DNA from: a virus
Direction: 5' to 3' (one strand)
IMG/VR virus record: IMGVR_UViG_3300029624_000048
Location: 1 to 32,153 of that record
Length of the DNA: 32,153 nucleotides
The translations under genes and the position numbers were made by a program. The stretch's first letter is position 1, and each line of letters begins with the position of its first letter. This document shows, in pieces, positions 13,068-29,109 of this stretch. Under the pieces are notes generated by a model. That model searched no databases. It was not told where the DNA came from and saw only the letters and a program-made list of their open reading frames with translations.

Positions 13068-13955
13068 CTATCTGAACCTTACAGGTATATTGGCTTCTTC
13101 GATGGCGTCTGGATCATAAGTCAAATAAGTACGCCCTAATCCTTCCCAATTATCAATAATTGCGCCATCATAGCCTCCGAATTTTACAGCATCATGAACA
13201 ATTTCATCTGCATCCCATCCGCCGGCACTCAGTATGTCCTGGACATCATTTACCCAATCATCTGGGTCGAGGCCGTGTTTCTCAACAAATTTTTGTTTTA
13301 ATTTTTCAATACCTGGCGTCGCTGCAAAATTCCTGGCATCCAAACGAAGAGGATTCTCTATTCGCGCATAGTACGACTTAACATCGCCAAATTGAGCTGC
13401 ATGATTTGGATCATCCGTAAGCCATATCGACGATGCGTCATCGTTATCGGGTCGTACTCCACGATAAACAACCAGCGGTTTTCCGCTTTCATCAACAATC
13501 GGGTTCCCGCGCATCCGAGTTGGCCCAGCGCCACTAAACACAGTTCTATGTGCATCTTGCGGAGACATCGCATCGATCAGCTTGTTCACGCCTTGCGGCA
13601 GGTTTCGGTTCATCCACTGGCTGCCGCGCCGTGTGCCGCGCGCTATGATGCCGACACCTGGAGCTGCCCCCAGCATAGCCGAAATAAGATTGGCATATTC
13701 CGTTGCAGCCTGTCCATATTGTCCCTGCTGCATGGCCTGAGCGCCGCGACCAGAGGCGTCCCACGCTTCGCGTGCCGACATCGCCTCACCCGTCACCGGA
13801 GCCATGGACAGACCGAAATCAACCGCTTCCTTGTTTTGCTCAGCCGCATTGACAGGCGTTCCGGTCCCGAACAGCCGGTCGGCGAACCACTGCTGCGAAC
13901 CCGGTGTGAACCCTTGCATGGCGGCGATCAGCTTGTCTCTCGACGGCTCCGGCAT
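13068..13955 (-). CDS. Virion protein with ADP-ribosyltransferase-like (ART-PolyVal) domain
   Basis: This gene encodes 295 residues. Residues 1-130 resemble other ejection proteins (FTPGSQQWFADRLFGTGTP, then a Gly/Ala-rich helix AMLGAAPGVGIIARG and NKLIDAMS). Residues 150-292 match the pattern of the ART-PolyVal domain: GNPIVDESGKPLVVYRGV, SSIWLTDDPNHAAQFGD, YYARIENPLRLDA, GGYDGAIIDN, and TYLTYDPDAIEEANI at the end. R165 and the W178-L179-T180 strand are candidate NAD-site elements. In this family the domain occurs in polyvalent phage and mobile-element proteins, where it is thought to modify host targets on entry. Position in the ejection block suggests injection with DNA. Activity and target are unproven. 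Confidence 0.72.
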   Translation of the reverse strand: MPEPSRDKLIAAMQGFTPGSQQWFADRLFGTGTPVNAAEQNKEAVDFGLSMAPVTGEAMSAREAWDASGRGAQAMQQGQYGQAATEYANLISAMLGAAPGVGIIARGTRRGSQWMNRNLPQGVNKLIDAMSPQDAHRTVFSGAGPTRMRGNPIVDESGKPLVVYRGVRPDNDDASSIWLTDDPNHAAQFGDVKSYYARIENPLRLDARNFAATPGIEKLKQKFVEKHGLDPDDWVNDVQDILSAGGWDADEIVHDAVKFGGYDGAIIDNWEGLGRTYLTYDPDAIEEANIPVRFR

Positions 13956-16546: not shown

Positions 16547-17032
16547 TTAAATTCCCTTGCGTTTCATGTCAATTCGGCGTGAAATCAACGTCTTGTCCTC
16601 ATCGGTCAGCCAGCGGCAGTGCCGGTAGGTCATTCCATAGCTCAAGGCATCCAGCCCCGGCCCGAGGCCCCACTTGTGAGAGCCTTCATGGGTAAAGCCG
16701 AGAGCGCACAGCGCTTTGCGGGAGGCCTTGTTCTTCTTCTGAACGGTCGCGGTCAGCCGGATAGCTTCCAGATCGATGAAGGCGAACCGGAACGAGGCGG
16801 CGATCATCGCGCGGGGGAGGCACCAGTCGGCGTCTTTGGCCCCGTTGAACTCGATGTCATGGCCGCCGAGCAGCGGCTTGAACAGATGGAACACCACCCC
16901 GAAGCGCAAGCGGCCGGTCTCGTCTTCCCCGCCAACCGCCTCATGCAGGACATTCTGGTAGGACAGCGGGTAATCGATGCGCGATGTGACAAAGGCGACG
17001 ACATCGCCCCGGCGATCCGTGACAAACCTCAA
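16547..17032 (-). CDS. GNAT-family N-acetyltransferase in the tail module
   Basis: This gene encodes 161 residues from the TTG at 17032, which overlaps the gp10-like stop as TTGA. No ATG is available nearby in frame. Residues 44-80 contain FGVVFHLFKPLLGGHDIEFN and the strand leading to the acetyl-CoA site. Residues 92-117 (RLTATVQKKNKASRKALCAL, GFTHEG) are the classical GNAT motif B, where the N-x-A-S-x-K/R segment and the GF-HEG turn are diagnostic. SYGMTYRHCRWL closes the fold. The enzyme should use acetyl-CoA, but the substrate is unknown. Acetyltransferases of this kind do occur in P22-like structural operons, so it may modify a virion component or a host protein. Confidence 0.7.
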   Translation of the reverse strand: MRFVTDRRGDVVAFVTSRIDYPLSYQNVLHEAVGGEDETGRLRFGVVFHLFKPLLGGHDIEFNGAKDADWCLPRAMIAASFRFAFIDLEAIRLTATVQKKNKASRKALCALGFTHEGSHKWGLGPGLDALSYGMTYRHCRWLTDEDKTLISRRIDMKRKGI

Positions 17033-18543
17033 AGAAGCCCGCCCCGCTTGGCCATCACGTCGGTTGCGTACCACTCCACACTGTCGGAGGTGGAATAGGT
17101 GCGCACGACCGGGGCCACCGAGCGGCCCTTGCCGCGAATGGGGTACCAAAGTTTATGGGTTTCCGCATCGCCGGCCCATTCGGCATCGTCCCAGTCTTCC
17201 TCATCCCACGCCGCGCCTTCGGACTCGACCGAGAGATCGACGAGTTCGGCGCTCAAGGCGGTTTCGGTAAACTCGGTATCGACCTGAAACTGCGCCTGAG
17301 CGGGGCCGGAGGCGGCAATATTCGGCTTCAGAAGCGTGTACTGATAGGTGTTGCTGGCATCCGGATAGGTCCAGCCCTGGCGCGCCAGCGTGACGATCTG
17401 ATCGCCATTGTCGGAGCCGGTGCCATGCCGGAAGACATTGTTGCTGGTCGGCGCGCCGAAATACAGCTCGCCGTTCAGGTCGGCAAACATCGCCGCCGGG
17501 AGATTGGTGTAGGTGGTCCAGGCCGAGTTGCGGGTGTTGAAGACATAGATCTTGTTGCTGTCCAGCCCGGTCGGTACGACAAAGTAGACCAGCCCCTCGA
17601 AGAAATACGCCGTCCAGCCGCTGTCCGTGCCGTGCATGTCGTAATCCTGCGCCCAGGTCGGGGCGATCCGGCCCCATTCGCGCAAGGCTTCCGGACGGAA
17701 GGCGTTGCCGGCCAGAATGGCCGAAAGCGGGATCGGACCCGAGGCGGTCATGACGACCAGTTCACCGCCAACCTTGACGGTGCAATCCGGACCGACCGGG
17801 GCGGGTGCGCGGTAGCTGCCGACATGATCGAATGTGGTGGACGGATCGCCCTGATAGACGATCACCTCGCCCGTGCTCATGACGAACACCGTGAAATCAT
17901 CCGACCCGTCGCCGGCATCGCGCGACCATGATCCGACATCCATGCATTTGCCGCCCGCTGCCACCTGCGAGATCTGGAATGCGGTCAGCGCGCCGGTCAC
18001 GGCGCCGAGCCCGCCATATTCGACATCGGCGGAATTGTTTACCGTGAACCACAACCGTTCACGCACCATGGTCACGGTCTGCAGATCGGTCAGCGTAACG
18101 CCGGTAAAGCCGGTTGCCGAGGTCGAGGCGCTGCCATCATAGCGCCACGGCGTATCGCTGGCATTGACGCCGAACATCCAGCCGTTGAAATTCTCGTAAC
18201 TCCACAGATTGTCGGTGTAGCTTGCCGAGCTGGTAATCGCCGATGGTGTGGAGGACACATCGTAAAGCTCGCCGCCGGCTGCTGCGATGATGGTCTGGGA
18301 CGAGGCCCCTTCGAACTTCATCAGCGAGGGGACGGCGCTCGCCCCGGAAATCGTCTGATGGGCTTCATGGCCGGGGCGCACCTTGCACGCCCCTTCGTCG
18401 GGGAGCCAGTTCTCCAGCACCCTTGCCTCGGTCGGCTGCAAAAGCGTATAGTTGTCGCGCGTGTTAAGCCCCTGAAGCGGGGCGGCAATGGGGAAAGCGC
18501 GTGCGGTGCCGCGCCCTTGCGGAGAGCGAAGCGGATTGATCAC
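17029..18543 (-). CDS. P22 gp10-like packaged-DNA stabilisation / tail accessory protein
   Basis: This gene encodes 504 residues. The start region (FPIAAPLQGLNTRDNYTLLQ, EARVLENWLPDEG, VRPGHEAH) is the signature of phage stabilisation proteins of the P22 gp10 type, followed by repeated beta strands with WxxF/G patterns as expected for a propeller-like tail accessory factor (P22 gp10 is 472 residues). It would plug and extend the portal-gp4 channel and hold fibres or the tailspike. The start is GTG 18543, which overlaps the gp4-like stop as GTGA. The order gp4-like then gp10-like matches P22. Confidence 0.78.
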   Translation of the reverse strand: MINPLRSPQGRGTARAFPIAAPLQGLNTRDNYTLLQPTEARVLENWLPDEGACKVRPGHEAHQTISGASAVPSLMKFEGASSQTIIAAAGGELYDVSSTPSAITSSASYTDNLWSYENFNGWMFGVNASDTPWRYDGSASTSATGFTGVTLTDLQTVTMVRERLWFTVNNSADVEYGGLGAVTGALTAFQISQVAAGGKCMDVGSWSRDAGDGSDDFTVFVMSTGEVIVYQGDPSTTFDHVGSYRAPAPVGPDCTVKVGGELVVMTASGPIPLSAILAGNAFRPEALREWGRIAPTWAQDYDMHGTDSGWTAYFFEGLVYFVVPTGLDSNKIYVFNTRNSAWTTYTNLPAAMFADLNGELYFGAPTSNNVFRHGTGSDNGDQIVTLARQGWTYPDASNTYQYTLLKPNIAASGPAQAQFQVDTEFTETALSAELVDLSVESEGAAWDEEDWDDAEWAGDAETHKLWYPIRGKGRSVAPVVRTYSTSDSVEWYATDVMAKRGGLL

Positions 18544-19241
18544 GTGATCGACCAGTTTCCGTCAGGGACATTGACCGGCCACAGTCCCGGCGTCGGGGCC
18601 ATGTCGATCAGCGGCATCGGGCGGTCATCGGCCTTGAGCTGCATGTAGGCGTCCATGTATTCCGCCTTTTCCTCATCATAAGGCAGCCCGTTGCGCGCCA
18701 GATAGCGATAGCGGATGCCGAGCGTCATCAGGTTTTCATCGAGCCGGGAGACATCGGTATCGGATGTCCAGCGGTCCTTGCCCGTCCCGCCCGAATCCTC
18801 GATGAAATACTTGCTGTAATAGTCGAAGATGATGGTGTAGGAGGTCGAGCCGGGCGCAGGGTCCAGATTGATCGAGTTGTTGAACACCGAATAATAGAAC
18901 CGGATGCCGGAGACGGTGATCCCGGTTTTCAGCTCCCGCCAGCCGGCATCGCTGACATGGATGAGCGGCCATTGATCGGTCGATGACCAGATGGTCAGAT
19001 TGGCGATCCGCCGCAGATCGCTCGGCAAGGCGTAATCGGTATCATCCTCGACGGTCGAAAACGAATGCGTACGCTTGAGCGCCTGCCAGCTGAACGACCG
19101 CTCGAGCGAGCGCCCGGTATCCTGGGCGCAGCGCTTGAGCAGGCTGGCTTGCGGGGAGGTGTTGTTCGCAATCGTCGTCGGAATGTTCTGGTCCAGAACG
19201 CCCTCCATGGCGTCCTGGCACAGGGTCAGAAGATCGCTCAT
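18540..19241 (-). CDS. Head-tail adaptor, P22 gp4-like
   Basis: This gene encodes 233 residues. WQALKRTHSFSTVEDDTDYA, LPSDLRRIANLTIWSS, the GIRFYY...INLDPAP turn and RYRYLARNGLPYDEEKAEYM form the pattern of podovirus adaptor proteins that bind below the portal and seal the filled head. It is somewhat longer than P22 gp4 (166 residues). The ATG overlaps the previous stop as ATGA, and its own stop overlaps the gp10-like start as GTGA. Assignment rests on the pattern and the conserved gene order. Confidence 0.7.
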   Translation of the reverse strand: MSDLLTLCQDAMEGVLDQNIPTTIANNTSPQASLLKRCAQDTGRSLERSFSWQALKRTHSFSTVEDDTDYALPSDLRRIANLTIWSSTDQWPLIHVSDAGWRELKTGITVSGIRFYYSVFNNSINLDPAPGSTSYTIIFDYYSKYFIEDSGGTGKDRWTSDTDVSRLDENLMTLGIRYRYLARNGLPYDEEKAEYMDAYMQLKADDRPMPLIDMAPTPGLWPVNVPDGNWSIT

Positions 19242-19894
19242 GCAGCGTCCTTGACGGGGCCGGTGCCAAGCAGACTGTCAAGATGCTCCCTGGCCTTGAC
19301 CTTGAAAGCTTCGACATTCTGCGACATGCGCCGCTGGCCGTTCTTCAGCAGATAGTCCGCGAGCTTTTTCGTATCCTGCTTCGACAGGCCGGCGAACTCG
19401 TTGAGGCTCTGGATCTGATGGCAGCGGGCTGCATTGATGATCAGCGGATGCAGGACATCGCCGAACAGCACGATGGGCAGATCGTCCCGGCGCTGGTCAT
19501 CCCTGATCAGGACCGTGATGTAATGCTGGATCGCGGTCCCGAAGCGATCACGAAGGCCGGAGATATTGGCCGATTGCGTGGCCTCGGCGAGGAAGTTCTG
19601 CGGCGTGATCGCGCTGCAGGCAATGTCGCCATTCCAGCGTTTCTGCTTTTCATCATAATACTGATGCCGCACAATCGGCTTGACTGAGAGAACCATCCCG
19701 TACGGATCGCGGGTGATTTCCTCGGCGACCTGGCAGCGCGAGGATTTTTCGTGGCTCTTTGGCACTGCCCGCGCATCGCCGCAATACATCCACGGGGTTT
19801 TCTCGACCACCTCGACAACCTTGATGGTGGATGGGTGCGGCGGGCCCTCGATCTCGTCGAGTTCCGGCTCGTTCCAGCTCTTGTTCAGATTCAT
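19238..19894 (-). CDS. Structural-region protein of unknown function
   Basis: This gene encodes 218 residues beginning MNLNKSWNEPELDEIEGPPH. AAGGAG precedes the ATG at a good distance. The middle shows TPWMYCGDARAVPKSHEK, QYYDEKQKRWNGD and GTAIQHYITVLIRDDQ, and the C-terminus is a helical Lys-rich stretch (LSKQDTKKLADYLLKNGQ). Two cysteines (C38, C54) flank a basic region, without a complete zinc motif. It sits between a small beta-rich protein and the gp4-like adaptor, so it may act in head completion or assembly. I recognise no family. Confidence 0.55.
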   Translation of the reverse strand: MNLNKSWNEPELDEIEGPPHPSTIKVVEVVEKTPWMYCGDARAVPKSHEKSSRCQVAEEITRDPYGMVLSVKPIVRHQYYDEKQKRWNGDIACSAITPQNFLAEATQSANISGLRDRFGTAIQHYITVLIRDDQRRDDLPIVLFGDVLHPLIINAARCHQIQSLNEFAGLSKQDTKKLADYLLKNGQRRMSQNVEAFKVKAREHLDSLLGTGPVKDAA

Positions 19895-19905
19895 CGGACA
19901 GCTCC

Positions 19906-20271
19906 TTACTCGACCGTGGCAATCCAGTTTGTGGCGTCAACGCGGGCGATAACGATTCCCTTGCCATCGGAGACGGTCTTAGCGGCATCGGCCGATCCGC
20001 CATTGATCGCACCGCCTGACGGCGGATAGACAAGCAGGTTGGAGCCCGATCCGTTGCCGATCAGGAATTCATCGCCAATCTGGGCATCGGACGGCAAGCG
20101 CACGCCGGTCGTTGCGCCCCCGCCGGAGACATAGGTCTTGGCCGCCTTGATGGCATAGGAATCATCTTGCGAGCTGGACCCTGTTGCGGTCACGCCGGAA
20201 TCAACCGTTCCTGCGACGGCTCTGGCGGTCTCGCCGCTCATGCCGACGCCCATTGCATCGTCTATTCTCAT
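19906..20271 (-). CDS. Small beta-rich structural protein, unknown
   Basis: This gene encodes 121 residues, Gly/Ser/Ala/Thr-rich with predicted short strands (TTGVRLPSDAQIGDEFLIGN, NLLVYPPSGGAING, GIVIARVDATNWIATVE). It ends in a W-containing strand that is typical of small phage coat-decoration or fibre-associated proteins (compare TNWIATVE with strands of tail proteins in this window). AAGGATG lies upstream of the ATG at 20271. Its position between the methyltransferase fusion and the connector genes leaves the role open. Confidence 0.55.
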   Translation of the reverse strand: MRIDDAMGVGMSGETARAVAGTVDSGVTATGSSSQDDSYAIKAAKTYVSGGGATTGVRLPSDAQIGDEFLIGNGSGSNLLVYPPSGGAINGGSADAAKTVSDGKGIVIARVDATNWIATVE

Positions 20272-20297: not shown

Positions 20298-21656
20298 TCA
20301 AAGCGGTTCCGTGCACACAAACGCGCCGTCGACCTTTTCCTCGCTTGTGCTGCCGATCAGCCGGACCTTGCCGAAATACCGCTTGAGCTTCTGCTCCCAC
20401 CATTCCGGGGGCCTGACGGTCTCGTGCAGAACCTCGCCGACCGCGACGCCGAACGTGTCGCCGACAAAGCAGATATTGAAGAATGCGCCCCGTTTGACGG
20501 AGCGGGCGATATTGGCGAGAACGTCGTCGACACGCGCCTCGGGGATATGCTCCATCACATCGCAGCAATAGCCCCAATCGCCCGAAATGCCCTCCGGCAG
20601 GTCCCAGAGATTGGCGAGGCAGAATGGGATGGTGATATTGTCATCAAGACAATTGGCGACGAAATCGACCCCGAGGACGCGGTAGCCCTGATCCATCAAA
20701 GCTTTGGTCGCACGACCGGTGCCGCAACCGAAATCGATCACCTTGTCGCCCTTGTGGGAATCGAACTCATTCAGGAAGATTTCAAGCAATTTTTCGCCTG
20801 GCGAATCGTCCCGATAAGCATCATATTCCCACATCCGCTTGTATTTATCACGCTCGACTTCATCAAGCGTGGCGGTTTCCAGGAACTTTTTGCGCGCGCG
20901 AAATATGGTCGGCAGCAACCCGTCACCGTAGAGGTGAAAGTCGATGCCGAGATCGCGGAACTTCTTCCAGCGCACCAAAAAGCGCTTGGCCTTGTTCGCC
21001 ATTGGGCCGGGGGCGTAGAATTTCTGGCCCTGGAAGGTAAACTCGAAGGTCGGCTGGTCATCATTGAGCGCTTGCGGATAGGCATGATGCTGATCCGCGC
21101 CGCGATTGGATGCGTCATAGCCGTAGAAATGCCAGCTGCGATAGCCCATCGTGAAGATCACGTTGAGGCAGGACAGCCCGACACAGATGTCGCCGCCATA
21201 CTTGTCGGCCTTCGGTGCCATCTTGTGCAGCAATTCGCCGACATGCTTGTAATTATCGACGTGCCAGAGATGGACCTTGCGCGCTTTGGACAAGAGCTCG
21301 TCAATGGCGTCCGGGTGCGCCTGGCTCGCGATGACATACGTCACGTCGGGGTGTGAATTCTCGACGAACTGCACATTCAGCGAGCGCGCATCGAGCAGAA
21401 AATGATAGGTTGGCACAATGCCATGCGAGATGAGATAATCATGGCTGCCGTTCATCGAGGCAACGGAGAATCCCGCAGCCTGATGGCGCTTGATGTCGGC
21501 AAGATTATCGGAGAGAGACGGGCCGCCACCGCAAATGCAGATCCGTTTCAGCCCGACCGTGGGAAGATCACGCGCGGCGTTGATGGTAACATTCTCATAG
21601 ACTTCTTCCCAACTGACATTCTGGTCGGTCTTGAAGCGGACGGGCGTTTGAAGCAT
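20298..21656 (-). CDS. Fusion of DUF115/MptE-like (Maf-like) domain and class I SAM methyltransferase
   Basis: This gene encodes 452 residues from ATG 21656. Residues 35-185 show a DUF115 / MptE-like pattern: RICICGGGPSLSDNLADI, then GIVPTYHFLLDAR, and GGDICVGLSCLNVIFTMGYR, SWHFYGYDAS. This matches the nucleotide-binding core shared by 6-hydroxymethylpterin pyrophosphokinase-like proteins and Maf flagellin glycosyltransferases. Residues 303-400 are a SAM-dependent methyltransferase: motif I VIDFGCGTG (306-314), VLGVDF with the acidic residue after strand 2, and YCCDVMEHIPEARVDD. HETVRPPEWWEQKL resembles a C-terminal cap motif of viral methyltransferases. The gene lies directly after a terminator, between decoration and connector genes. 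A role in sugar transfer and methylation on virion or host is inferred. Neither substrate nor activity is visible. Confidence 0.75.
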   Translation of the reverse strand: MLQTPVRFKTDQNVSWEEVYENVTINAARDLPTVGLKRICICGGGPSLSDNLADIKRHQAAGFSVASMNGSHDYLISHGIVPTYHFLLDARSLNVQFVENSHPDVTYVIASQAHPDAIDELLSKARKVHLWHVDNYKHVGELLHKMAPKADKYGGDICVGLSCLNVIFTMGYRSWHFYGYDASNRGADQHHAYPQALNDDQPTFEFTFQGQKFYAPGPMANKAKRFLVRWKKFRDLGIDFHLYGDGLLPTIFRARKKFLETATLDEVERDKYKRMWEYDAYRDDSPGEKLLEIFLNEFDSHKGDKVIDFGCGTGRATKALMDQGYRVLGVDFVANCLDDNITIPFCLANLWDLPEGISGDWGYCCDVMEHIPEARVDDVLANIARSVKRGAFFNICFVGDTFGVAVGEVLHETVRPPEWWEQKLKRYFGKVRLIGSTSEEKVDGAFVCTEPL

Positions 21657-21670
21657 GGCTCTCTCATGTT

Positions 21671-21698
21671 GAAAGGGCGGGCCACCGCGACCCGCCCT
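21671..21698 (-). terminator. Hairpin terminator after the coat/decoration genes
   Basis: Read leftward, AGGGCGGG (21698-21691), a 9-base loop and CCCGCCCT (21681-21674) form a perfect 8-bp GC-rich stem followed by a short T-run (TTTC). It lies 12 bases after the decoration gene stop and just before the fusion gene. The short T-tract suggests partial termination, the usual way phages lower expression of genes downstream of coat protein. Confidence 0.7.
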
Positions 21699-21709
21699 CA
21701 ATTTCAGAA

Positions 21710-22186
21710 CTACTCGACAATCACCGGATAGGTCGCCAGCAGCTCGGACGCGCCGCCACCGGAGGCAACCGAGACGACCACCACGCCGTCAAGCGCGATG
21801 TAAGCCGTTCCGCCACCCATGGTCGCGACCGTATTGAGAAAGCCGGCCGTTCCGGAGAAATACAGCTGGGCATCGGCCGACGCATTGTCGGAGATGTTGC
21901 CGGAGAAGTTGGTCCCCTGGCAAACAACATAGCCATACTCATTGTCGGAAAACGCAACCTGTGCCCAGCCGACGAGATGGCTGGCGGCCGCCGTCGTCTG
22001 CGTGGCAGCGGTCGCCTGGAAATTCTCGTCGATGGTCACGCAGTCATACTGGTCAATCGCCCCGCTGGGCTGGTCATAAACCCATTTCTGGTTTTCCGCG
22101 CCATAGAAGCACTGACCGAGCTTGCCCTCGATGGTCGAACTCGGCGCATCGATCCGGGCATTCAGGAACGTGTAAGACGCAGTCAT
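21710..22186 (-). CDS. Head decoration-like protein
   Basis: This gene encodes 158 residues, rich in Ala, Gly and Thr with many beta strands (FYGAENQKWVYDQPSGAIDQ, YDCVTIDENFQA, GWAQVAFSDNEYGYVVCQG, TAYIALDGVVVVSVASGG). A strong GGAG-ATG context precedes the ATG at 22186. It follows the coat protein gene by 24 bases and ends just before a terminator, exactly where decoration or cement proteins are found in many tailed phages. Sequence type and position agree, but the family is not named with certainty. Confidence 0.62.
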   Translation of the reverse strand: MTASYTFLNARIDAPSSTIEGKLGQCFYGAENQKWVYDQPSGAIDQYDCVTIDENFQATAATQTTAAASHLVGWAQVAFSDNEYGYVVCQGTNFSGNISDNASADAQLYFSGTAGFLNTVATMGGGTAYIALDGVVVVSVASGGGASELLATYPVIVE

Positions 22187-22210: not shown

Positions 22211-23176
22211 TTACGCCTTGATCACGAAGTGACGCTGACGGCTGGAGACCGTCAGGTTACCCGCGAACAGAATCGGATAGAGATAGGCGTCCTGATTGAC
22301 GCTATCCTTCCGGTCCATGATCTTGAAGTTCTTGCCCTTGAACGGACGGAAGAAGAAATAATCCGTGTTCAGGCCGTAGGCCCGTGTTGCCGAGCAATTG
22401 GGATCATGGACGACGCGAGCCGACTTGTAGCCATAGGCCTTGAAGCCGCCGACCGCCTTTTCCTCGCTCATAAACCGCTGGTTGGCCTGCAGAGCGCGCT
22501 CGAAATAGTCGAAATAGGTGGTCCCCATCACGACCAGATCGACCTGCTCATTCCCGCGATCGGTGTTCAGGAAGCTCAGATTGAGCGCCTGAAGGATCGT
22601 GGACGCGCCGGCCGTCAGAGAGTTGTCGGAGAAGTCGAAGGCGTAGTTGCGCCAGAAGGTGTTGGACGACTGGGATGCATCGATCCCGCCGACCGTCGGC
22701 GTTGACGGTGTGTCGGAGACCAGATGCTGCAGACCGCCGAGCGCCTTGCCGTCATTCTCCGTATTGGAGTTGAACAGCGCGGTTCCCACGGCGTTCTTGC
22801 AGGTGGCCATGCCCGCCTTGATCTTGGCCTCGATGAGGTTCAGGATGCGGGACTGGCCGGCGTTCTGGATGTCTTCCAGACCGTCCTGGACGATGTTGGC
22901 ATAGAACTGCTTCCAGGCATAGTTCGCGCTGGTCAGAACGTCGGTCGCCTGAACGTCCAGAAGTTCGGAGCCGGTATACCATCCCGAGGATGTGACCTCG
23001 TTATAGAGCACCTGCTCCAGGATTTCGACGCCGCCATCGGCGAAGTCGGTGTTGCCCTTTTCCATGAGCACGGAGAGAAGGGCATTGTTTTCAAGCACAT
23101 CGTCAGCCGCACTATCGCGGTAATTCGCAATAGCGGCGGAGAACGCCTGGCTATATTCGCTGTTAGGATCAGCCAT
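22211..23176 (-). CDS. Major capsid protein
   Basis: This gene encodes 321 residues. The pattern VLYNEVTSSGWYTGSELLDV, DVLTSANYAWKQFYANIVQD, GLEDIQNAGQSRILNLIEAK and the later WRNYAFDFSD and DLVVMGTTYFDYFERALQAN segments match a family of HK97-fold coat proteins in podovirus-like phages. The C-terminus is beta-rich (YPILFAGNLTVSSRQRHFVI). It is smaller than the P22 coat protein (430 residues), so it appears to lack the extra I-domain. It lies directly after the scaffold, with GGACTTGGA before the ATG. It would form the shell with the portal at one vertex. Confidence 0.8.
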   Translation of the reverse strand: MADPNSEYSQAFSAAIANYRDSAADDVLENNALLSVLMEKGNTDFADGGVEILEQVLYNEVTSSGWYTGSELLDVQATDVLTSANYAWKQFYANIVQDGLEDIQNAGQSRILNLIEAKIKAGMATCKNAVGTALFNSNTENDGKALGGLQHLVSDTPSTPTVGGIDASQSSNTFWRNYAFDFSDNSLTAGASTILQALNLSFLNTDRGNEQVDLVVMGTTYFDYFERALQANQRFMSEEKAVGGFKAYGYKSARVVHDPNCSATRAYGLNTDYFFFRPFKGKNFKIMDRKDSVNQDAYLYPILFAGNLTVSSRQRHFVIKA

Positions 23177-23215: not shown

Positions 23216-24436
23216 CTATTGAGACAGAAGGGACTTCACGTTGGTTGCATGGACGGCATCACGCAGGGACATCTTGCCCCGATTGACGGTCTGGCCGGTT
23301 GAGCCGGGAGACGGGGTTGCCGCGCTTGCGCGCCTGGCCCGCTCGGCTTCCTGTTTCTGCTGATAGGCTGCGAGCCGCTTGGAGACTTCTTCCTCCTGCA
23401 GCTGCTTGCTCAGTTCAGGGTGAACCCGGACCGCCTTTTCATAGGACTCCTTTACCGCCTTGCGAGGGTTGGTCAGGAATTCGGGGTGAAGCTGCAACAG
23501 CTGCGACGCCTCGTTCACCACGGTCTGCATGTGGGGATATTTCGGCGAGCCGTCTTCATTGACGGCCGTGCTCTCGGTGCGGATCTCGTTGAGAAACGCC
23601 TGTTGAGCCTGCATCTGTTGTTGCTTTTCCCGGCTTTCCTTGTCCGACCGCAACATCTGCTCAATACCATCGATCCGCTTTTCCAAGGGATCATCCCAAT
23701 CCTCGCCTTGAGGATCGGCTTCCTGCTGTCCTTGAGGCTGTTGCCCGCCGAACAGCTGGTCTTGAGTGACGCCGGTCCGCTTGATAAGCTCTGCGATGTA
23801 AGGGGTCGGGTCGCCTTGCCCCCCATTGGTCGCAACAGCGAGACCGAATCCCACAGGATCGCGCGTATAGGCATCATGTTGCTGAAGGAGCCAGCCGGTC
23901 ATGCCGGCCTCGTCCACGCCATAATGCTGCATGAAGTGGCGATGGTGGTCTTGGAATTGGCTGTTTATCGCGTCAAGCTTTTTCCGGCTTTCGGCAGTTG
24001 CCTGCCCATTTTGAGTGATCCATTTATTGATCTCTCTTTCACGCTCTAGGATGAGATTCTTGGCCTCATCAGGTAGAGCTTCGAAGGCTTGACGCCTCTC
24101 CTCGGGCCAGCGCGCGAGCACGCCGGGAGACTCTTGCGAGGCCTGGTCGTCGGGCTGGTCCTGAGAAGAAGGCGTTTGTGAGGGTGCCGCCTGATCGCCC
24201 GCGTCCGGGTTCTCAGGGGCGGTGTTACCAGCATCCGGCTCGGCCCTGGCCGGGGCTTCGCCTTGGCCGGTTTCAGCGGTTGCCAGGTCATCCGTGGCCG
24301 CAGACGACGCCGGGTCCCCGCTATTCTGTTGCTGCACGGATGTCATACCCGCGCGAATGGCATCTCTCAATCGGTTGGTCGATTTTCCGCTTGCAGGCTC
24401 CGTTGTCGGAGGGCTTGCGGGATTTAGTCCGTCCAT
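23216..24436 (-). CDS. Capsid scaffolding protein
   Basis: This gene encodes 406 residues, acidic and Gln/Ala/Pro-rich with a largely disordered N-terminus (1-100). Then comes a helical core with WPEERRQAFEALPDEAKNLI and LEREREINKWITQNGQATAE, and a charged helical C-terminus with basic and Lys/Arg-rich end segments (about 350-406). This layout, and the position immediately upstream of the coat gene, are typical of podovirus internal scaffolds that direct procapsid assembly and then leave. The ATG at 24436 is preceded by AAAGGAG. It overlaps the upstream 111-residue gene by 13 bases. Confidence 0.75.
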   Translation of the reverse strand: MDGLNPASPPTTEPASGKSTNRLRDAIRAGMTSVQQQNSGDPASSAATDDLATAETGQGEAPARAEPDAGNTAPENPDAGDQAAPSQTPSSQDQPDDQASQESPGVLARWPEERRQAFEALPDEAKNLILEREREINKWITQNGQATAESRKKLDAINSQFQDHHRHFMQHYGVDEAGMTGWLLQQHDAYTRDPVGFGLAVATNGGQGDPTPYIAELIKRTGVTQDQLFGGQQPQGQQEADPQGEDWDDPLEKRIDGIEQMLRSDKESREKQQQMQAQQAFLNEIRTESTAVNEDGSPKYPHMQTVVNEASQLLQLHPEFLTNPRKAVKESYEKAVRVHPELSKQLQEEEVSKRLAAYQQKQEAERARRASAATPSPGSTGQTVNRGKMSLRDAVHATNVKSLLSQ

Positions 24437-24800: not shown

Positions 24801-25085
24801 TCAGGCTGCCAGCAGGAACAGCACCGCCTCTTCGTCATCCTGCTCAGCCCGCGCCCGTCGGTGATCGGCAAGCTGTTTCTTCAGCTTTGCCAACTCGCCG
24901 TGAATTGCCTCAAGCCTGGGATCGGGCGCGAAGGCTTGCGGCAGGGGTCGGGACGGCTCCGGTGTTGCGCCTGACGGCGTTGTGACCCTTGCCTTTTCCT
25001 TACGCCTGATGCGCTTTCTGGCATTGTCGAGCTTGCGGTAGCGCTCGAGAGCGGCTTCGTATTCTTCCTGCGTAAGGTAGGACAT
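24801..25085 (-). CDS. Small helical protein, unknown
   Basis: This gene encodes 94 residues. The first half is basic and helical (YEAALERYRKLDNARKRIRR), then a Pro-rich linker, then a coiled-coil-like helix (LEAIHGELAKLKKQLADHRR) and a short hydrophobic end (AVLFLLAA). The ATG shares one base with the portal stop (TGATG). It may help portal or scaffold assembly, judged only from position. Confidence 0.55.
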   Translation of the reverse strand: MSYLTQEEYEAALERYRKLDNARKRIRRKEKARVTTPSGATPEPSRPLPQAFAPDPRLEAIHGELAKLKKQLADHRRARAEQDDEEAVLFLLAA

Positions 25086-27745
25086 CAGGCAAAGGTCTCG
25101 ACACGGCCGGACTTGTCAAACTTGAGCGGGCGCTCGCCGGGCTGCAGCTTGTCGAGCAACTCGCGAATATCGCCGGGGTTCTCGCCAATGACGACAGCGG
25201 CATTCCTGCCCGTCTTCGGGTCTTTCCTGAGCGAACGCGGCGCCGTCTGATAGCGGATCAGCGCTTCCATCACGTCCTGCGTCTCGTCCTGCTGCTGCGC
25301 AATGCCCTGAATCGCCTGTGCGATCATCACCTGCTGTTTTGAAAGGGTTTCCTGACCCTGCTGCAATTGCTGTGACAGCATCTCGACCGCCTTCATCACC
25401 TCGGAGCGCAGACCCTCGCCGGTCTTGACTTCCATCTCGCCCGAGGCGACCTGCTGATCGAACTGCGTCTTTTGCTGATCCATGGCGCGGCGGGCTTCCA
25501 TGTCCTCGCGCTTCATCTGGCGATCTTCCGCCTGACCCTGGCGATCAGCTTGCGCATTCTGCTGATTGGACTGGAGTTCCTGATAGCGCAGACCCTGGTC
25601 GAACTCGGCATTGCGCCGGTTCAGGTCCATCTCTTCGCGGCGAAGCGCCAGATCCTGTTCGCTGGTCTCGCGGCTGACCTGCGCTTCCTGAGCCCGGCTC
25701 TGGACCTCAAGGCCCTTCAGCTGGATTTCCTTTTCCTTCAGCACGATTTCACGGCCCTTGATCTCGCGCTCAAAAGCCATTTCCTGCGCTTTTTCTGCCC
25801 GCTCGGCCTCGGTCTTTTGCTGCTCCATGGCCAGCTTGCGCTCTTCAAGCTGCATCTCGGCCTGAACCTTCTGAAGCTCGGGATCTTCACGCGGCGGCAT
25901 GTTCTCGATCTGCTCGAATGCGTCTTCAAACGACTCCTCAAGCGTGCGCCCGATCTTGAAGCCGCCAAGCGTGAACATCATCAGCTCCTTGAAGAACGGC
26001 GCTTGTGACGGATTCTGCTGAATGGCCGGGATGCCGCGCTCAAGTGCTTGCGTCAGAACCGTCATCAGCTCCATGCGCTGCTGTTTTTCCGTCTGCTCGT
26101 CTTCAAAGACCGTGACATCGGTCTCGACGTCGATATTGTAGTTGCGACGGTCATCAGATCGCAGGATTGCCGAGACCTCTTCCCATGTGGCGGCTTCTGC
26201 CGTGGCCTTGACGGCCTCGAGGTCTTCGTCATCAATCGGCGGCGGCGGTGCAGGCTGGCCGGCCTGACGGGCCTGCTCAGCAATCTGCTTGTGCTGTTCG
26301 GCCTGCTGCAGCATCGCCATGGCCTGCTGCTTCTCGTAAGCCATCGGCAGGACGATGCCGGTCATCTGCTGCAACTGATCGCGCCCGAAGAACTGCGCGA
26401 TCATCTCCGCCTTCATCCGGTAGAGCGTGACGACGAAGCGGTCGACTTCCTTCTTTTTCCGCCGCATCCGGCCGGAGCCGAACTGCGCCTTGATCGATTG
26501 CGCGGTGGCGGTCTCGTCTTTTTCCGTCGCCCCGCGCATGATATCCGAAATGCCGGTGATCTCGTAGATGCGCTGGATGAGCTCTATAGAGCGCTGTGCA
26601 AGCCCCTGAATGGCGACGATGATGGGCTGGAGGTCGCGCGTTGCAAACGCCTTCTCAAGCCCGCCAGCGGCCTGGAGCATCTGGAAATTCTTGTAGGCCA
26701 GGAACTCGCCGTCCTGCAGCTTGCCCAGATTGGCCAGGGTGCCCTCACCGTCTTCGGAACTGGCATCGTAAATGCCGCAATATTTCAGCGCGGCGACAAG
26801 TTTCCACAGCCGCGTATTGACGCGATCAAGCTCGTCGGCCTGGTCCTTGTACTGGAAGAACTCGGGGCGCGGAATGAGGCTTGAGGATGTCTTGACGGCG
26901 TAGAGCGGGCGCGGGCACGGGAAAAAGTTTTCAAGCTGATAAGGGTCTTCTTCGCGTTCCAGCTCGTGTGGATAGTCGTCGGCAACGTAAACGCGGATCT
27001 TTTCCGGCTTGTACCAGATTTCCCAGACGCGGGCGCGCTTGAAAGATCCATCCTTCTTGGAGTCAGCATCGATGTTTTCTTCTTCGATGACCTGATTGAT
27101 CGGGATGTGATCGGCGTGTTCGGGCCAGCGCTTTTGCAGATCGCTCTTGGTGAACAGCAGCTCGCGGGCAACCCAGGGAATATCGTCCCATGAACGGCCA
27201 TTGCCGTGGCGGAAGGCTTTCCACTCGACATGCTTGAAGCGGACATCCTGATAACGGATGCGCTGGGCTGTATCGCCGGTCTCTTCATCCTCGTAATCTT
27301 CAAGGACCGGATTATACTCGATCCAGCACACGCCGCGACCGGGAAGCAGCGTGTCTTCCACAGCCAATTCGATCTGGCTGTCGGGCTCGTAGCGATTGGT
27401 ACACGCGGTAAGCGCGCGCTCCATGACCAGAGCCGCCGTGCGGGCCGTCTTGTTGGCCTTGCCGGGCAACGGGAAGGCCCGGCGCACATCCGGGTTGCCA
27501 AGGTTCTCGAACAGCGAGCCCTTCTGCACCTCGGTATTCGCCCACAGGATGTTGATCCGCTTCTCGAACTGGCCGCCGCCCTCATAATGCTCGCGGTCGT
27601 CCATGTAGCGGCACTGGACATCGTCGCCGTTCCTGCGGAACTTTTCTTCACGCTTGGCCGCGCAGTCGAGCTGGGTATGCCAGAACGAGGCCGTCTTGCG
27701 CTGTTGCTGCTTGTCCAGCGTGTCGCCGTCGTTGGTCTGCGCCAT
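25085..27745 (-). CDS. Portal protein, P22-like with very long C-terminal coil
   Basis: This gene encodes 886 residues. The first 560 residues show the P22-like portal pattern (NILWANTEVQKGSLFENLGN, WIEYNPVLEDYEDEETGD, YQDVRFKHVEWKAFRHG, WVARELLFTKSDLQKRWPEH, GISDIMRGATEKDETATAQS, AQFGSGRMRRKKKEVDRFV). Residues about 612-790 are an extended Gln/Glu/Arg-rich coiled coil, comparable to or longer than the barrel helix of P22 gp1 (725 residues in total), and the C-terminal 60 residues are distinct. Portals form a dodecamer at one capsid vertex through which DNA is packaged and ejected. The gene follows the large terminase by 32 bases. Confidence 0.85.
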   Translation of the reverse strand: MAQTNDGDTLDKQQQRKTASFWHTQLDCAAKREEKFRRNGDDVQCRYMDDREHYEGGGQFEKRINILWANTEVQKGSLFENLGNPDVRRAFPLPGKANKTARTAALVMERALTACTNRYEPDSQIELAVEDTLLPGRGVCWIEYNPVLEDYEDEETGDTAQRIRYQDVRFKHVEWKAFRHGNGRSWDDIPWVARELLFTKSDLQKRWPEHADHIPINQVIEEENIDADSKKDGSFKRARVWEIWYKPEKIRVYVADDYPHELEREEDPYQLENFFPCPRPLYAVKTSSSLIPRPEFFQYKDQADELDRVNTRLWKLVAALKYCGIYDASSEDGEGTLANLGKLQDGEFLAYKNFQMLQAAGGLEKAFATRDLQPIIVAIQGLAQRSIELIQRIYEITGISDIMRGATEKDETATAQSIKAQFGSGRMRRKKKEVDRFVVTLYRMKAEMIAQFFGRDQLQQMTGIVLPMAYEKQQAMAMLQQAEQHKQIAEQARQAGQPAPPPPIDDEDLEAVKATAEAATWEEVSAILRSDDRRNYNIDVETDVTVFEDEQTEKQQRMELMTVLTQALERGIPAIQQNPSQAPFFKELMMFTLGGFKIGRTLEESFEDAFEQIENMPPREDPELQKVQAEMQLEERKLAMEQQKTEAERAEKAQEMAFEREIKGREIVLKEKEIQLKGLEVQSRAQEAQVSRETSEQDLALRREEMDLNRRNAEFDQGLRYQELQSNQQNAQADRQGQAEDRQMKREDMEARRAMDQQKTQFDQQVASGEMEVKTGEGLRSEVMKAVEMLSQQLQQGQETLSKQQVMIAQAIQGIAQQQDETQDVMEALIRYQTAPRSLRKDPKTGRNAAVVIGENPGDIRELLDKLQPGERPLKFDKSGRVETFA

Positions 27746-27777: not shown

Positions 27778-29109
27778 TCAGTCAAGCGCTCTGTTCTTTC
27801 TTTGATAGTGGGCCTCCAGCTCGTCCATGGTCATGGCGTTGCGGGGCATTGGGTTCGTGACTTCTTCAGGGGCCGGAGGCGGCAAGTCCTGCATCACCTG
27901 GCAGCCATAGGAAAACGCATCGCCGGGATGGCTGGCCCAATCGTGCAGAGGGTCCTTGCTGAACACCTGAAGATCGGGATTGAACTCGTACGACCAGGCT
28001 CTCAGGCCATCGAGGCCGAGATCGCAATTGGTCTCGTGGATCTCACAGCGCTCCATGATGGTGCGCGCCGCATTGATCCGGTTGGAGACGAGCGTACGCG
28101 GGACGACGCCGCATTTGCTGAGCCCGAAGGCCCTTGCAAACTGCTCAAACGCGCTGTGCTTGCTCAGGAACGCCTTGTTCGTTGCGTCATGGGGCAACCA
28201 TACCCGGCCGAGCTTCCAGCCGTTCTGCTTCAAAAGCTCCTGAATGCGAACAATCCAGTCCTGTGCATCGAAGCCGCTGTCGCCATCATAATGCAGGACG
28301 GCAAACCCGCCGATGCGGCGCTGCCAGTACCACCAGCTTGCCGTGTCCCTGAAGCCGAGGTCGGATGCGATCTCGATGCCGGGGCCGCTCGGGTCGTACA
28401 TCACACCGTCATGAATGCGCCCGTCCTTTTCGGCATCGCTGACCCAGCGTCCGAGGATCGCGCCTTTCTGCACGCCGTAGCCGCCTTCCCAGACATGCTC
28501 GGCAGCGTCCGGGTCGGTCAGCTTGTCGTGCTCCATTTCCTTCTTGAGCACGTCCGGGAACCATGGGTTGTCCCGCCAGTTGACCATAACGCTGATCGAT
28601 TCCGGGTGCGGGCTCTTGCGGAAGAACACATCAATCGGATCGGTACGATGGCGCGGGTTCCAGCTTGCCCAAATCTCCGAGCCGGCCTTGCGGATGGTCG
28701 GGCGAAGCAGATCGAGCGAGACTTGGCTGAGCGTCTGCGCCTCTTCGATCCAGGCGATGTCATAGCCCTCAAGCGACTTGATGGTGTCGCTGTTATAGGA
28801 CTGCATGCCCCGGAATATGATCAGCGAGCCGTTGGCGCCGCGTATCTCTGTCTCAAGGATCGTGAAATGCTTCTCAAGACCGAGCTTGGAGATCTTGTCG
28901 ACGAGAAGCTGCTTGACGCTGTCCTTGATGGAGTTCTGGACTTCACGGATGCAGACGACACGCAAGGGGCGTGCATACGTGCGAACGATGATCTGCTCAG
29001 CGAAGAAATGCGACTTGGCTCCGCCTCTGCCTCCGTACAGTCCTTTGTACCTCGCCGGCCGCAGCATGCACTGCATTTTGCGAGGTACATCGACCCTTAT
29101 TGTTGGCAA
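27778..29109 (-). CDS. terL: Terminase large subunit
   Basis: This gene encodes 443 residues. Walker A is GGRGGAKS at 26-33, Walker B DIAWIEEA at 117-124, and [10 protein letters not shown] (149-158) is the coupling motif. The nuclease region shows D250 (IASDLGFRD), D308 (LPHDAT) and D397 (HPGDAFSY), the acidic triad of the RNase-H-like fold. It is the motor that pumps DNA into the procapsid and cuts it. The only clear start is TTG at 29109, since an in-frame stop lies just upstream and the next Met is residue 12. The first 20 residues ([20 protein letters not shown]) match family N-termini, so the gene is not truncated. It overlaps the homing endonuclease gene by 13 bases. Confidence 0.9.

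Follow-up and report, generated by a model that had tools for sequence, protein, structure and literature searches.

The viral DNA analyzed here (a virus record of 32,153 bases, referred to as the window) carries, directly behind its capsid genes, a single gene in which a DUF115/Maf-type domain is joined to a class I SAM-dependent methyltransferase. The reading that we favor, with somewhat better than even confidence, is that this fusion is an exchangeable enzyme of the late operon of Mx8-like phages that installs a glycan on a virion protein and methylates it in a second step. The argument builds on the observed domain make-up, fold, conservation, and synteny of the fusion, on the gain and loss of its gene, and on its replacement at the same genomic slot by other combinations of glycan-type enzymes.

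The fusion open reading frame is complete, with its ATG at 21656 and its stop ending at 20298, and encodes 452 amino acids plus the stop (Table 1). In Pfam, residues 31–183 match PF01973 (MptE-like/DUF115; E=1.1e-15) with 58.3 bits against a cutoff of 34.6, placing the protein within that family, and several class I methyltransferase models (Methyltransf_25, Methyltransf_11, and Methyltransf_23) match residues 280–393, the best of them being Methyltransf_25 (residues 306–390, E=4.3e-9, exceeding the gathering score). As sequence assignments, neither domain call can plausibly be due to chance. NCBIfam returned weak matches only, including FlagModPseD at residues 39–130. An AlphaFold2 model built from 53 sequences has a mean pLDDT of 92.5 and a pTM of 0.84. 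The initial annotation, in which both domains had been proposed from motifs, was thus accurate: GGGPSLSD (43–50), LDAR (88–91), GGDICVGLS (154–162), and YGYDAS (178–183) in the first half, and VIDFGCGTG (306–314) and WWEQKL (419–424) in the second, all lie in this gene, whose coordinates had been given correctly and whose strand, left unstated, is minus. Its expectation of a DUF115/MptE fold at residues 35–185 is likewise borne out by the Pfam match and by the structural comparison with Maf described below, and that of a preserved SAM pocket by an apparently intact motif within a confidently modeled methyltransferase fold.

Table 1. Positions in the window of the fusion gene, its two domains, and the surrounding late-operon features
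Feature	Position	Strand	Basis
Terminase large subunit	27778..29109	(-)	PF04466 E=7.7e-37
Portal protein	25085..27745	(-)	phrog_12082 E=2e-150
Scaffold-type protein (function inferred from position and composition)	23216..24436	(-)	Conserved synteny cluster c5
Major capsid protein	22211..23176	(-)	phrog_9953 E=1e-64; hhalign to Mx8 major head protein
~160-aa virion (decoration-type) protein, Mx8p49 homologue, candidate acceptor	21710..22186	(-)	Synteny; hhalign 99.7%
Hairpin with short U-run (attenuator-like), between virion-protein and enzyme genes	21673..21699	(-)	Fold z -2.7
DUF115 (Maf/MptE-like)-SAM methyltransferase fusion gene	20298..21656	(-)	ORF, Pfam, 81 full-length fusions, AlphaFold2 model
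DUF115/Maf-like transferase domain, residues 35-254	20895..21554	(-)	PF01973 31-183, 5MU5 fold match, PDB profile search
Class I SAM-dependent methyltransferase domain, residues 264-452	20301..20867	(-)	Methyltransf_25/11/23, fold matches
Small protein right after enzyme gene, cluster c10	19906..20271	(-)	Synteny; without family match
Protein at c6 position	19238..19894	(-)	Synteny; without family match
Head-tail adaptor (SU10 adaptor-like)	18540..19241	(-)	PF24175 E=5.6e-12; phrog_6013 tail protein

To place the DUF115 half among its relatives, the model and a profile of 23 DUF115 halves were compared with known structures. Residues 35–254 superpose on the Magnetospirillum Maf (5MU5) with a VIA Z of 18.9 (rmsd 3.0 over 198 residues), and the profile retrieved Maf 5MU5 at 3e-16, MptE 8SD5 at 1.9e-6, and, weakly, CstII entries among the GT42 sialyltransferases (E 2e-3 to 2e-2). 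According to a paper on a clostridial Maf (PMC11339370), the Magnetospirillum structure has a pfam01973 domain that resembles the sialyltransferase CstII. The fusion shares with Maf the central DUF115 fold and the GxGPS, R173, GxD, and H191 elements; it differs in carrying a C-terminal methyltransferase instead of the Maf N-terminal domain (Maf_flag10_N, PF20157, had no Pfam match in the window protein and is present in the host Mafs L175 and L176), and in being phage encoded behind capsid genes, whereas Maf is flagellar. Similarity to GT42 enzymes of the CstII type is consistent, including the GxGPSL and TxG...G-D regions, but very distant (E about 2e-3), with nothing pointing to a sialic acid donor. 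With MptE (6-hydroxymethyl-7,8-dihydropterin pyrophosphokinase), the fusion shares the Pfam family but neither a pterin context nor the Asp-rich SDLDGD run, presumably the metal site of that enzyme: VSDLDGDLE of MptE aligns with LLDARSLN of the fusion, and D89 alone is retained.

Eight residues are invariant in all aligned phage DUF115 halves (G45, S47, N69, D89, G179, D181, H191, and G246). Two alphaproteobacterial host Mafs have in common with the phage domain GPS 45–47, R173, G179 and D181 (GxD 179–181), and H191, making catalysis by the phage domain plausible. Positions 69 and 89, N and D in the phage proteins, are G and E in these host Mafs and D and D in MptE, so that details of donor and chemistry are not transferable from either; a prophage-type DUF115 copy (L173) also lacks D89. 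The initial annotation had left open whether this half handles a sugar or a pterin. Because Maf ranks well ahead of MptE and the SDLDGD motif is missing, sugar transfer is favored over pterin chemistry, and, together with the partner enzymes found in the same slot (below), the balance leans clearly toward a sugar-type transferase.

The methyltransferase half displays the hallmarks of class I enzymes, namely motif I (DFGCGTG 308–314), an acidic residue (D331) invariant in 54 sequences, and a Rossmann-like fold. It matches UbiG-like and small-molecule methyltransferases (VIA Z about 17–20). Methyltransferases crowd the 50 VIA matches listed for the fusion model, so that the absence of GT42 enzymes from that list carries no weight either way. 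Conservation across the 54 sequences is 98–100% for the SAM motif, for D331, and for the DVMEHIP loop.

A first scan of viral contigs recovered seven relatives, five of which match almost the whole fusion protein; a second, with a five-sequence alignment as query, returned at least 574, from which 80 were retained. Together with the window, 81 full-length fusions were extracted, 54 of them nonredundant at 90%. With this many full-length copies and a median pairwise identity of about 40–46% per half, conservation of the fusion is not accidental. Invariant or nearly invariant positions comprise G45, S47, D89, S111, G160, G171, R173, G179, D181, H191, F226, and G246 in the DUF115 half, and D308, G310, G312, G314, D331, DVMEHIP 366–372, and W420 in the methyltransferase half, the WW pair at 419–420 being conserved at 96% and 100% in the 54 sequences. 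The pairwise distances computed for one half correlate with those for the other (r 0.70; a value this high came up in 0 of 999 Mantel permutations), which would be in line with a fusion that travels mostly as a unit. Four fusion loci (L025, L038, L077, and L079) have a second, stand-alone DUF115 gene nearby.

Among 50,697 GenBank phages, the methyltransferase half alone found matches; the DUF115 half found none, nor did a stand-alone DUF115 query, and no cultured member of the fusion family was found. A scan of GTDB genome contigs yielded one relative, L084, in a Rhodopila metagenome-assembled genome; it combines the same capsid module with glycosyltransferase, DUF115, and FkbM domains and is probably a phage contig or prophage. 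No match covering both halves of the fusion was found in 385 genomes of the class of Rhodopila. Two DUF115 matches from that search that were checked, with open frames of ~670 aa (L175 and L176), are host Mafs, and L173 is a DUF115 gene near an SU10-adaptor-like gene in a prophage-like setting. Alphaproteobacteria are our best guess, and no more, for the hosts of the fusion-bearing phages.

The surrounding late operon is conserved. In most fusion loci the order is terminase, portal, a small protein, the scaffold-type protein, the major capsid protein, the ~160-aa protein, and the fusion, followed on its 3′ side by one or two small genes, the SU10-type adaptor, and the next structural gene. The location behind coat and decoration-type genes given in the initial annotation is therefore correct, the fusion gene adjoining the ~160-aa virion-protein gene and then the major capsid gene. 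The capsid and ~160-aa proteins are homologous to p48 and p49 of Myxococcus phage Mx8 (hhalign 100% and 99.7%), annotated in the Mx8 record as major head protein and virion structural protein, respectively. In gene order, too, the Mx8 morphogenesis module agrees with these loci, but it has no enzyme gene, the slot between p49 and p50 being empty.

A partial terminator had also been noted ahead of the fusion gene; the hairpin at this place is real (-22 kcal/mol, z -2.7) and is followed by three U only, and a simple terminator scan missed it. In 31 of 48 fusion loci a terminator-like hairpin lies behind the p49-like gene, compared to 3 of 240 shuffles, the hairpin of the window itself narrowly missing the rule used for this count. 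Such hairpins are likewise present there in 12 of 27 enzyme-free loci, whereas only 1 of 42 lies behind the capsid gene; the hairpin therefore goes with the virion-protein gene, and the enzyme gene is located beyond it. The enzyme would then be expressed at a lower level than the genes upstream of the hairpin. Matches to sigma-70 promoters in the window are at chance level.

To determine what else occupies this position, loci were selected by the capsid protein alone (eight closer capsid proteins as the profile), blind to the enzyme, and the slot was defined as the region between the capsid protein and the adaptor. Among the 49 nonredundant loci with a fully visible slot, 15 carry DUF115 plus methyltransferase, 7 carry other DUF115 forms, and 27 have no DUF115, so that a DUF115 gene is present in 22. 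On the capsid tree, DUF115 presence requires at least nine gains or losses, eight of them imposed by branches with good support; if the three slot states are taken together, 13 changes are needed. Such repeated gain and loss at one site marks the enzyme gene as an accessory and no structural necessity.

The alternative occupants are glycan-type combinations. An N-terminal phrog_1962 glycosyltransferase precedes DUF115 and a methyltransferase in L012–L014, DUF115 and an FkbM-type methyltransferase in L084, and DUF115 and Methyltransf_24 in L100; the reverse order, DUF115 and then glycosyltransferase, is found as a fusion in L086 and as adjacent genes in L158; and DUF115 stands alone in L111, L116, and L159. 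Deeper in the operon than the slot, L160 encodes a Sulfotransfer_3-DUF115 fusion (L160:14356-15948) near genes for a UDP-glucose/GDP-mannose dehydrogenase, a GT2 enzyme, and one more glycosyltransferase, and in an alphaproteobacterial genome a sulfotransferase (Sulfotransfer_3) gene (L171:603-1298) lies within the 3.7-kb locus of a DUF115 match. Nothing argues more strongly for sugar chemistry than this constancy of DUF115 beside partners of glycan type, and exchange of the slot among such enzymes, or its emptiness, points to an exchangeable virion-decorating enzyme. An unrelated siphophage, MW202621, shows the same pairing: its capsid gene is followed immediately by a gene for a methyltransferase (40% identical) and, after that, by a DUF115-like gene (a moderate call, 89.7%). 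The single fused polypeptide singled out in the initial annotation is real, but it represents one of several architectures within a large family of exchangeable cassettes and is not an isolated case; the broader proposal of a modification enzyme gains support from the predicted domains, motif, position, and same-slot replacements.

Three smaller observations concern these loci. The phrog_1962 glycosyltransferase domain is GT-A-like, with a DxD-type motif in most copies (L012–L014, L084, L100, L086, L158, and L160). Cluster c28 (77 aa; e.g., L136:9784-10023) lies near the slot in 9 of 22 DUF115 loci versus 0 of 27 loci without DUF115, an association that may reflect relatedness alone. A DUF115-like gene beside methyltransferases in L007 was not counted, its hhalign value being 23%.

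For the window itself, we infer a glycosyltransferase role of the DUF115 half; synteny and slot architectures fit a virion glycosylation cassette. The fusion would be a soluble two-step glycan enzyme and an accessory of the late (capsid) operon, in which the DUF115 half, as a Maf/GT42-like glycosyltransferase, would attach a host-made activated sugar to protein. The scanned window proteins include no sugar-nucleotide biosynthesis genes, so the donor would need to be the host's. The acceptor would most likely be a virion protein of the same operon, either the capsid protein or the Mx8p49-like product of the gene immediately upstream, after which the methyltransferase half would methylate that sugar (or the donor) using SAM, and the weak terminator hairpin may keep the dose of the enzyme below that of the capsid proteins. 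The Ser/Thr content of the Mx8p49-like protein, considered as a lead to the acceptor, showed no difference: it is 0.190 with and 0.189 without the enzyme (independent-pairs p about 0.69), a comparison with few pairs and little power.

The main rival to a virion acceptor is that the same two-step glycosyl/methyl transferase modifies host lipopolysaccharide, capsule, or flagellin, thereby altering a receptor or blocking superinfection. GT42 enzymes, as reflected in PDB entry titles, act on lipooligosaccharide, and alphaproteobacterial genomes do encode Mafs, one of them beside a UDP-GlcNAc 2-epimerase gene. O-antigen conversion genes, however, usually lie in lysogeny regions and are partnered with membrane proteins, whereas this gene keeps a fixed late-capsid-operon position behind a virion-protein gene. 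Although Maf relatives modify flagellin (PMC11339370), we regard a host-surface target as less likely than a virion acceptor.

Two further readings are far less probable. The Pfam name and the significant MptE profile match would agree with an MptE-type pyrophosphokinase acting on a pterin or other metabolite, the product of which the second half would methylate. However, Maf is the much better match, an LDAR-type sequence replaces SDLDGD, the D at position 69 is N in the phage proteins, and the partners are glycan-type rather than pterin enzymes; this reading was accordingly set aside as very improbable. Even lower stands the idea of a minor virion, assembly, or chaperone-like component with vestigial enzyme folds. 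That the gene has long been conserved among the morphogenesis genes across the main lineage could be taken in its favor, but the gene is absent from more than half of the capsid-defined relatives, and so is not required for assembly; moreover, the near-complete retention of the SAM motif, D331, and the DVMEHIP loop, and the substitution of unrelated methyltransferase families for one another in the slot, speak against such a role. Glycosylation and methylation of a virion protein thus remains the preferred interpretation.

Cluster O mycobacteriophages offer a precedent: according to the passage on them in PMC11600133 (citing Freeman 2023), their genomes encode an O-methyltransferase together with three glycosyltransferases in tandem, and these enzymes reportedly modify proteins of the capsid and tail tube. 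As that passage presents them, these cassettes likewise combine phage-encoded glycosyltransferase and methyltransferase activities, with virion proteins reported as modified there and with modification predicted from genes here; they differ in being separate genes, compared to the DUF115/Maf-type domain fused in one polypeptide here. In the open-licence literature searched, no description was found of a DUF115/Maf-type enzyme plus methyltransferase at a fixed capsid-operon site, and no relevant paper on DUF115 or MptE-like proteins in phages; one apparent match in the BREX literature was discarded, the term being DUF1156. To our knowledge, phage virion glycosylation is established in a few systems only, mostly mycobacteriophages. 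Glycosylating phage cassettes are already known, and the DUF115/Maf-type enzyme in that role, which we have not found described, is the new part.

More tentatively, and with less than even confidence, these loci may represent a large and hitherto undescribed group of exchangeable cassettes for virion decoration, placed at one fixed site of the capsid operon in Mx8-like phages. At its core would be a new Maf-like branch, set apart from Maf and MptE by the invariant N69 and D89, and this branch would build glycans (methylated, sulfated, or extended) directly on capsid proteins, such that related phages could change their chemical coat by swapping one gene. If true, virion glycosylation would also be common in uncultured environmental phages, by way of a different transferase fold. 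There would be one predictable genomic site at which related phages swap enzymes or have none, and with it a clean natural comparison for what capsid glycosylation serves. PF01973 is often automatically annotated as pterin diphosphokinase, and its reading in phage genomes would be corrected.

Two other genes deserve mention. At 13068-13955 (-), the window encodes a 295-aa protein with a weak, below-cutoff ART-PolyVal match (ADP-ribosyltransferase of polyvalent proteins; E=5.4e-6, residues 155–285), which is possibly delivered with the DNA. The conserved gene after the adaptor (17029-18543 (-) in the window and L167:7867-9477) carries the label "amidase" in PHROGs and in the Mx8 record. Its location behind the adaptor, however, hints at a tail or stabilization protein, and this is the name that it bears in the related record MW202489.
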